64,000 bases of DNA from Bolinopsis microptera (taxonomy: Eukaryota; Ctenophora; Tentaculata; Lobata; Bolinopsidae), in assembly GCF_026151205.1 (NCBI RefSeq), contig NC_087074.1, forward strand, positions 3,286,001 through 3,350,000, read 5' to 3'. A program made the translations under genes and the position numbers. This document shows, one piece after another, positions 40,846 through 43,800 of the stretch; position 1 is the first letter of the stretch, and every line of letters starts with the position of its first letter. The notes below the pieces were generated by a model, which had not been told where the DNA came from, did not search any database, and saw only the letters and a list, made by a program, of their open reading frames with translations.

Positions 40846-43800
40846 CTAACCTTTGATGACAGCAATGGGTCGCAGTTTGATACACTTATCACTGATACCA
40901 GCCCCGTGACACGTGTCAACCACATCAGTCACATTTTTATACGATTCTGGTGCTTCCTCCATCACTAACTTGGGGGAGGCTACTCTGATTGAAATTCCTT
41001 TCTCTTTAAGGTTTTCTAAAACGGTCATATAGTCCAAGTTTCTCCGTGATTTAGCCCGAGAGTAAGCTCTCCCAGCACCATGGCACGTGGTCCCCAGTGT
41101 TCGTTCCATTCCCTTCTCTGTTCCCGTTAACACGTAGCTGCAGGTTCCCATTGTTCCCCCGATTAGTACTGGTTGTCCTGAATTTGAATTAAGAAATAAA
41201 ACATGAGCACTAACAATGTAAAGTGAATACCTGGATTTTTACAGCTTTATCAAGTAGAGGTGTTTTTACTGTCAACCTACAGTCTACACAAGTAAACACA
41301 TGACCAGGTTAAGAAATTAGCAACTGTAGTAGTTACTAGGTAGCACCTGTTAGTAACTAGTTAGTACCTGTTAGTTATTAGTTAGTACCTGTTAGTTACT
41401 AGTTAGTACCTGTTAGTCACTAGTTAGTACCTGTTAGTTACTAGTTAGTACCTGTTAGTTACTAGTTAGTACCTGTTAGTAACTAGTTAGTACCTGTTAG
41501 TTACTAGTTAGTACCTGTTAGTTACTAGTTAGTACCTGTTAGTTATTAGTTAGTACCTGTTAGTTACTAATTAGCACCTGTTAGTTGCTAGATAGTACCT
41601 GCTAGTTACTAGATAGTACCTGTTAGTTACTAGTTAGTACCTGTTAGTTATTAGTTAGTACCTGTTAGTTATTAGTTAGTACCTGTTAGTTACTAGTTAG
41701 TACCTGTTAGTTACTAGTTAGTACCTGTTAGTAACTAGTTAGTACCTGCTAGTTACTAGTTAGTACCTGTTAGTTACTAGTTAGTACCTGTTAGTTACTA
41801 GTTAGTACCTGTTAGTTGGTAGTTAGTACCTGTTAGTTACTAGTTAGTACCTGTTAGTTACTAGTTAGTACCTGTTAGTTACTAGTTAGTACCTGTTAGT
41901 TACTAGTTAGTACCTGTTAGTTACTAGTTAGTACCTGTTAGTTACTAGTTAGTACCTGTTAGTTACTAGTTAGTACCTGTTAGTTACTAGTTAGTACCTG
42001 TTAGTTACTAGTTAGTACCTGTTAGTTACTAGTTAGTACCTGCTAGTTACTAGTTAGTACCTGTTAGTTACTAGTTAGTACCTGTTAGATACTAGTTAGT
42101 ACCTGCTAGTTACTAGTTAGTACCTGTTAGTTACTAGTTAGTACCTGTTAGATACTAGTTAGTACCTGTTAGTTACTAGTTAGTACCTGCTAGTTACTAG
42201 TTAGTACCTGTTAGTTACTAGTTAGTACCTGTTAGTTACTAGTTAGTACCTGTTAGTTAGTACTAGTTAGTACCTGTTAGTTACTAGTTAGTACCTGTTA
42301 GTTACTAGTTAGTACCTGTTAGTTACTAGTTAGTACCTGTTAGTTACTAGTTAGTACCTGTTAGTTACTAGTTAGTACCTGTTAGTTACTAGTTAGTACC
42401 TGTTAGTTACTAGTTAGTACCTGTTAGTTACTAGTTAGTACCTGTTAGTTAGTTACTAGTTAGTACCTGTTAGTTACTAGTTAGTACCTGCTAGTTACTA
42501 GTTAGTACCTGTTAGTTACTAGTTAGTACCTGTTAGTTACTAGTTAGTACCTGTTAGTTACTAGTTAGTACCTGTTAGTTACTAGTTAGAACCTGTTAGT
42601 TACTAGTTAGTACCTGTTAGTTACTAGTTAGTACCTGTTAGTTACTAGTTAGTACCTGTTAGGTAGTTACTAGTTAGTACCTGTTAGTTACTAGTTAGTA
42701 CCTGTTAGTTACTAGTTAGTACCTGTTAGTTACTAGTTAGTACCTGTTAGTTAGTTACTAGTTAGTACCTGTTAGTTACTAGTTAGTACCTGTTAGTTAC
42801 TAGTTAGTACCTGTTAGTTAGTTACTAATTAGTACCTGTTAGTTACTAGTTAGTACCTGTTAGTTGGTAGTCTACAGGTATAAGAGGGTGGTTAGGTGGA
42901 AATGCCCGTGTAGCACCCTTCCTGTGCATCATCAGTGTCTTTAACTTGCCATCTAACATATGCTGCTCCACCTGACAGTCAAATGTAATGGTAATATAAA
43001 TAAGTATAATAAAATTAATAATATTGTGAGATAGTAACGAGAAAGTCGTCGGATCGACGAAGGACATCTCATAAAATGTACGATTGTTTAATGTTTATAC
43101 GCCGGCCGTTACTTATATAAGCAGTTTATGAATAACAAGAGACTGAATTATAATAGCGTAATAAGTCTAGAAATAACAACGTCTAGATATATTAAAATTA
43201 GCGTTAATTAGTAGTACATGTCAAGTGTCAACAAACCTTAGCGATATTATGAGAAACATCATATATCATATGCATATCAAGATCATCAGGGGTCGAGTTA
43301 AATATCTTGGCAAACGCTTGTCTGCAAAGGAATGTCATGGAACTTCTGTTAACCCACGCATAGTTTGCAGCTGCTGCCATTGCCTGATAGTTGGATGTTA
43401 TGTCGTGCCGATCGTACATATTATCCTTATTTGTATACGTTTATTTAGAAAATATAATATGTAATTTCTTATTTTATTTTTAATGATATCAATATGTTTT
43501 AATACGAAAGGTAATCTTGATTAACTCAATAGATCACCTTTAAATAGTTTTGTCCCTCTTCTGAATTGATCCTAGCACAAGCAAGTTGTCTGTCATTAAC
43601 CACGATATTGTCACGCTTCATTGCTCTCTCCATTTCTGTTAAAGCATCTGTTGCTACCTACACCAACATATCTATTAGCAATTAAATTGTTCTGTTTTCA
43701 CGACATTACGTAACTTGGTGATAAAACTTCAAGACAATATATATAATATATATAATATGACAAAACATGATATAACAATGACCAAAATGTTTCAAGATCT

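Follow-up and report, generated by a model that had tools for sequence, protein, structure and literature searches.

A 21-bp minisatellite spanning an RTCB splice donor, and similar arrays at other candidate splice junctions, in the ctenophore Bolinopsis microptera

Tandem repeats whose units span an exon-intron boundary have been described in amphioxus, where the name "mirage" is used for them (PMC3087553 and PMC3902484, both in excerpt). In the parts of those papers drawn on here, mirages occur in globin, Adh, and PGBD5 genes and affect either donors or acceptors, with units of 10–72 bp and of 150–160 bp in which AG/GT is kept in many but not all units; the edges of the clusters escape homogenisation, and splicing is reportedly undisturbed. 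In human genes, the repeat units of the IFI6 (6-16) minisatellite are splice donors, of which downstream ones are used to give isoforms (PMC4526556, in excerpt), minisatellites at exon-intron boundaries in segmental duplications accompany 27 intron modifications (PMC2812944, in excerpt), and a dual-specific AG/GT in the repeat unit of UBC and VCX3A can act as donor or acceptor (PMC10809524, in excerpt). The array analyzed here lies in a ctenophore gene and, like amphioxus mirages, is composed of tandem units spanning an exon-intron boundary.

The window, by which is meant the whole 64 kb stretch of DNA that was analyzed (GC 38.6%), contains a gene for a tRNA-splicing ligase RtcB homologue (RTCB; coordinates of all features are collected in Table 1). 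Its identification in the first-pass annotation is borne out by the spliced alignment and by a phmmer match of one upstream exon to human RTCB chains and structures (E 2.9e-22). The spliced alignment, which uses GT donors only, printed 11 exons, including one of 5 nt that vanishes if the intron concerned is of the GC-AG type; by eye, the intron at 44725–44903 is best read in this way (CCAG/GCTAGT ... TTTCAG/GAGGTG, where the slash marks the boundary). The donor of the last intron is at 42857/42856, the array edge, just where it had been placed on first pass, and exon 9 ends in phase 1; the limits of the intron itself are corrected to 41178–42856.

Approximately 90% of the last intron consists of the 21-bp array, for which TRF reports a period of 21, 72.2 copies, and 94% matches over 41330–42865, in agreement with the earlier estimate of about 70 units, and for which the consensus unit on the minus strand is GTACTAACTAGTAACTAACAG. 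The non-array 3' end of the intron measures 168 nt by unit parse or 152 nt from the TRF edge. Parsing, in which cuts are made only at AG/GT so that starting with GT and ending with AG is built into every unit, yielded 70 units, 65 of which are 21 nt long, 46 identical to the consensus, and 65 in possession of TACTAAC. Unit lengths of 21, 24, and 25 nt occur and double-length units are absent, indicating that no AG/GT boundary has been broken; a pattern count likewise gives 71 internal AG/GT, none of them found broken. The earlier description of each unit as GT...TACTAAC...AG thus holds for the boundaries, and for TACTAAC in 65 of 70 units.

Table 1. Features of RTCB and of sampled arrays elsewhere in the genome. 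Positions are those of the window; exon-derived lengths at loci designated L are from ungapped extension, in the copy adjacent to the exon and in the best copy where two values are given.
Feature	Position	Strand	Exon-derived part of unit	Basis or remark
RTCB (tRNA-splicing ligase RtcB homologue), read as 10 coding exons	40849..45823	-		Spliced alignment, human RTCB as guide
RTCB exon 10, last coding exon	40849..41177	-		Spliced alignment and ORF
RTCB last intron, 1679 nt, phase 1, GT-AG	41178..42856	-		Spliced alignment
3' part of last intron beyond clean units, with presumed true acceptor ...AAATTCAG/GACAACC	41178..41345	-		TRF extends the array to 41330
Putative junction-seeded minisatellite, 21 bp x 72	41330..42865	-	Copy read as 14 nt of exon end plus 7 nt of intron start	TRF, units, exon match
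Internal unit with the exon's own form CTACCAACTAACAG	41809..41829	-	14/14	Unit list
RTCB exon 9, 115 nt, ending ...CTACCAACTAACAG	42857..42971	-		Its last 14 nt make up the exon-derived portion of the unit
RTCB acceptor array, 35 bp x 4	43982..44121	-	Copy read as 24 nt of intron end plus 11 nt of exon start	TRF, spliced alignment
L051, homeodomain exon			34 nt	
L009 and L043			29 nt	
L046, WD40-like exon			27 nt adjacent, 29 best	
L050			24 nt	
L042, acceptor			19 nt	
L040, ADP-glucokinase acceptor			13 nt adjacent, 18 best	
L052			8 nt adjacent, 12 best	
L039, dynein AAA exon			4 nt adjacent	36 nt (35 identical) in one internal copy
L048			2 nt	
L044			0 nt	

Genome-wide pattern searches covered 264,652,675 bases in 232 contigs. 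The pattern GTACTAACNNNNNNCTAACAG gave 59 matches, 57 of which are inside the RTCB array, and the reversed pattern gave 10. Within the window there are 494 AGGT sites, those of the array among them; 76 agree with the final 14 nt of the unit at 10 or more places, a number close to the 72 sites of the array, in a count that takes both sets together. Marker searches for placement of the phylum gave no match for COX1 or for the nuclear-receptor DNA-binding domain, in the latter case with no match for the controls either, and 19 matches to an Antennapedia-type homeodomain, none of them above 55% identity. A dispersed element or introner was considered as the origin and rejected, as the RTCB unit was not found as an array elsewhere by the genome-wide pattern.

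The end of exon 9, CTACCAACTAACAG, and the end of the unit, CTAGTAACTAACAG, are identical in register at 12 of 14 positions, the exon's exact form is present in one internal unit (Table 1), and the best of the 59 exactly matched donor copies agrees with the exon end over 15 of 15 nt. These matches uphold the earlier proposal that the array was seeded from the exon/intron junction. The exon side of this junction codes for protein (DYQLTG), and hence the exon is presumably the source and the unit the derived copy, as far as can be judged from sequence. The proposal is strengthened by six other loci (L009, L043, L039, L046, L050, and L051) where the units hold 24–36 nt of exon. Counting against it is the nature of the exonic 14 nt in the RTCB unit, which are short and simple in sequence. 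The match of the unit adjoining exon 9 is also short, with 9 identical nt before the first mismatch in ungapped extension, as might be seen if an ordinary intronic minisatellite had by chance ended at the donor and come to resemble the exon end. Such a coincidence would be helped by the abundance of minisatellites in the window (18 with a period of at least 10 bp and at least 3 copies, amounting to 4562 bp in 64 kb, about one third of it a single TCC-rich tract), but the in-register identity, the internal unit of exact exon form, and the other junction arrays containing 13–36 nt of exon make it quite improbable.

Several further repeats and one open frame were observed in the window. A 30-bp x 3 array at 36877–36971 starts near a GTAAGT donor-like site on the minus strand (frame ending ...NKALRY), and its unit is not exon-derived by eye. 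A 23-bp x 8 array (GGTAAATATACC...) at 4125–4305 begins a few nt past the stop of an ORF with a carboxypeptidase regulatory domain and is a possible UTR junction array. Another 23-bp array, CCTGGGTCACGGTCCCGAAAGGG, occurs at 25741–26153 and, in opposite orientation, at L042:335-712, and is perhaps a dispersed satellite. A TGACCC hexamer array of 1.6 kb occupies 13559–15145 and is flanked by arrays of the 10-mer CCATTAATGC at 13272 and 15806, and a minus-strand open frame of 626 codons at 29612–31489 resembles a reverse-transcriptase ORF by eye.

The consequences of misplaced splicing at RTCB can be read directly from the frame. Exon 9 contributes 38 full codons, and from whichever of the 71 internal donors splicing proceeded, TAG would follow after codon 41, three codons beyond the exon, as the first-pass annotation had anticipated from the phase 1 exon. 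If exon 9 were instead spliced to one of the internal AGs, a stop would come after 41–48 codons in every case. Continuity of the protein argues that the exon-side donor and an ordinary acceptor beyond the array are most likely the sites used. The view of the units as decoys appears sound on the basis of their sequence, with three qualifications. Although AG/GT is intact in all of them, the donors are not "perfect" as had been claimed, in that CAG/GTACTA lacks a G at +5. The acceptor-like unit ends are without a polypyrimidine tract, GTACTAACTAGTAACTAACAG having no pyrimidine run, which weakens their suggested role as potential acceptors. TACTAAC, previously regarded as a consensus-like branch point, forms where the copied intron start GTACTAA joins the next copied exon piece, and may simply have arisen from the duplication without being a branch point in its own right.

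At all 71 internal boundaries AG/GT regenerates a donor, leaving a GT start after removal of what precedes it, and stepwise removal would therefore be silent. The CAG/GTACTA boundaries might accordingly be recursive (zero-length-exon) splice sites through which the intron is removed piecemeal, a reading that is compatible with junction seeding, since the latter concerns origin. It gains from the consensus unit, in which 14 nt separate the AG end from the A of TACTAAC that is presumed to be the branch point, and from the distribution of substitutions within units, 5 on 11 core signal positions versus 18 on 10 others. Recursive splice sites, or ratchet points, feature a polypyrimidine tract before the AG, which the unit does not have, and 21 nt is far below ordinary animal intron size, so that only jumps of several units would be workable. 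The contrast between core and other positions is weak, being made up of 4 versus 7 distinct substitution types, and intact boundaries are equally explained by recent homogenisation. Piecemeal removal at this locus is therefore considered unlikely. Selection on the splice signals within units was rejected as a claim, the distinct substitution types being too few. RNA structure over 42600–42880 shows nothing unusual (z-score -0.80 versus shuffles).

Substitutions are also unequal along the array: of 65 units, the half nearer the exon contains 5 and the distal half 18 (permutation test, one-sided p 0.015), a contrast that fits recent amplification near the exon. The presence of several variant unit types, unevenly spread along the array, bears in addition on whether a shorter array was falsely expanded during assembly. 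The published B. microptera assembly, if that is the source of this sequence, was built from long reads by wtdbg, followed by Illumina polishing (PMC10232365, in excerpt), and copy number in such arrays can err; however, a copied single read error would not give such a distribution of variants, and similar arrays are present at many loci, so that an artefact of this kind is extremely improbable.

Two-thirds of the unit is exon, and it carries the AG/GT that is required by the model in which an intron is itself gained by tandem genomic duplication of an exonic AGGT segment (PMC3443670, in excerpt). Tandem copying of an AGGT segment is thus common to that model and to RTCB. The model predicts, however, that donor and acceptor are both unit copies, whereas at RTCB the acceptor lies 152–168 nt beyond the array in a separate, non-repeat end, and only one of the two sites is copied; the acceptors at L051 and L044 are likewise outside the array. 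Gain of the intron in this manner is very unlikely, and the separate, non-repeat acceptor end indicates that the RTCB intron probably pre-existed.

The RTCB array is, with high confidence, a junction-seeded minisatellite or "mirage", presumably tolerated because the exon-side donor would still work. We infer the order of duplication, the neutrality, and the donor choice as follows. A segment straddling the boundary, with 14 nt from the end of exon 9 and 7 nt from the start of the intron, would have been tandemly duplicated, and slippage or unequal exchange would then have raised it to approximately 72 copies inside a pre-existing intron. Since each copy has an AG/GT of its own, the exon would keep an adjoining donor however far the array expanded. 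By exon definition, the spliceosome would most likely choose the exon-side donor, together with the ordinary acceptor past the array, leaving the mRNA unchanged and the array free to drift neutrally.

A second array in the same gene, of 35-bp units, spans the acceptor of the intron at 43993–44257. By eye its exon part is identical at 9 of 11 positions; ungapped extension finds 4 acceptor copies and only 7 nt of exon, 6 of them identical. Of its three decoy acceptors, one has lost its AG, which reads TG. Two of the 18 RTCB junctions thus lie in arrays, a result unaffected by errors of a few nt in two of the 18 coordinates at the GC-AG intron. Taking, as a rough guess, seeds of 20 bp and approximately 150 junctions for the window, less than one minisatellite would be expected at a junction by chance, so RTCB alone does not prove that junctions are targeted.

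Arrays elsewhere in the genome were sampled as every distinct array among the matches listed, approximately the first 100 per search, 6 being from the donor word CAGGTANNT and 9 from CAGGTAAGT; the 15 arrays follow the order of listing and are not a random sample. Eleven of the 15 were judged to be at splice junctions (10 of 14 if L009 and L043, copies of one gene, count once), eight at donors (L009, L039, L043, L044, L046, L050, L051, and L052) and three at acceptors (L040, L042, and L048), and no clear junction was seen in the other four (L041, L045, L047, and L049). Exons with Pfam matches above the curated cut-off are those of L039 (dynein motor AAA_7, 3.9e-7), L040 (ADP_PFK_GK, ADP-glucokinase, 6.1e-11), and L051 (Homeodomain, 5.1e-23); the exon of L046 matches MABP1/WDR62 WD40 below the cut-off (1e-4), that of L044 has a weak match (0.064), and those of L009, L042, L048, and L050 have no Pfam match. 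The junction calls for L009, L042, L043, L044, L048, L050, and L052 were made from open frames between splice signals. To judge from the lengths in Table 1, L044 and L048 may be intron arrays merely reaching a splice site. With similar arrays at dynein-motor, ADP-glucokinase, and homeodomain exons, the fact that RTCB encodes an RNA ligase, which had been thought to add interest, looks coincidental.

Three of the sampled loci show additional features. The arrays of L009 and L043, 32-bp and exon-spanning, are located at approximately 36 kb and 761 kb of G000:C1. In L052 (G000:C10:17036500-17039000), a 66-nt candidate exon seems to have arrays at both ends: one of 3 copies covers its acceptor, and in the other, at its donor, TRF counts 42 copies, 39 of which carry the exact donor word. 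A sulfotransferase exon (Pfam) lies near L041.

The tendency of donor words to occur in tandem was assessed from tandem triples per single site, in counts of units and not of arrays, such that large single arrays weigh heavily and repeat counts are lower bounds. The donor word CAGGTANNT gave 4135/44936 (9.2%) and its reverse 184/23212 (0.8%), while the control word CAAGTGNNT gave 968/28568 (3.4%), with two C2 arrays accounting for most of the 100 matches listed, and the reverse of the control 434/35224 (1.2%). Donor words thus form tandem triples 2.7–11.6 times as often as the three control words, the figure depending on the control word. For CAGGTAAGT versus its reverse, there are 431 versus 0 triples and 474 versus 1 pairs, compared with single sites that differ only about twofold (2462 versus 1212); pairs of CAGGTAAGT are about one fifth as many as its single sites. 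The enrichment of donor words in tandem may exceed what random seeding would give and may be unexplained by neutrality alone. It could be supposed that splice junctions, donors and acceptors alike, are preferred birthplaces of minisatellites in this ctenophore, that a noticeable share of its introns carry dozens of identical competing sites, and that in splicing either the copy next to the exon is chosen or the arrays are taken out stepwise via AG/GT, a proposal that is speculative and, at present, rather doubtful.

The literature searched, which most subscription journals fall outside, yielded no report of junction-spanning minisatellites in ctenophores among the matches listed. Compared with amphioxus mirages, RTCB and the other arrays of this genome share a repeat that spans the boundary and includes exon sequence, AG/GT within the units, and occurrence in several genes at both donors and acceptors. 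Length instability is touched on by the contrast between L009 and L043, which have 37 and 26 donor copies, respectively; these are similar loci (98% over 1081 columns, mostly array). The host is B. microptera and not a cephalochordate, a taxonomic rather than a structural difference, and the RTCB array is further distinguished by its approximately 72 copies and by TACTAAC in the unit. Among the human cases, the downstream repeat donors of IFI6 give isoforms, whereas those of RTCB all give a stop. The repeats in segmental duplications are tied to recent paralogues with newly formed introns and alternative splicing, whereas the RTCB intron bears no sign of newness. In UBC and VCX3A the intron is embedded in the repeats and is a whole number of units long, whereas the RTCB acceptor is outside the array.

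The kind of structure is therefore known, and what is new is its host, together with a hint that junctions are favoured places. Natural introns with approximately 70 near-identical donors constitute a clean test of splice-site choice where sequence strength cannot decide, as the donors differ chiefly in where they lie with respect to the exon. Should junction arrays prove as frequent as in this small sample, a single genome would supply many tests of this kind for donors and acceptors alike. The ctenophore case would place in a lineage very far from amphioxus and human a structure that bears on the lengthening of introns and on their origin by tandem duplication.
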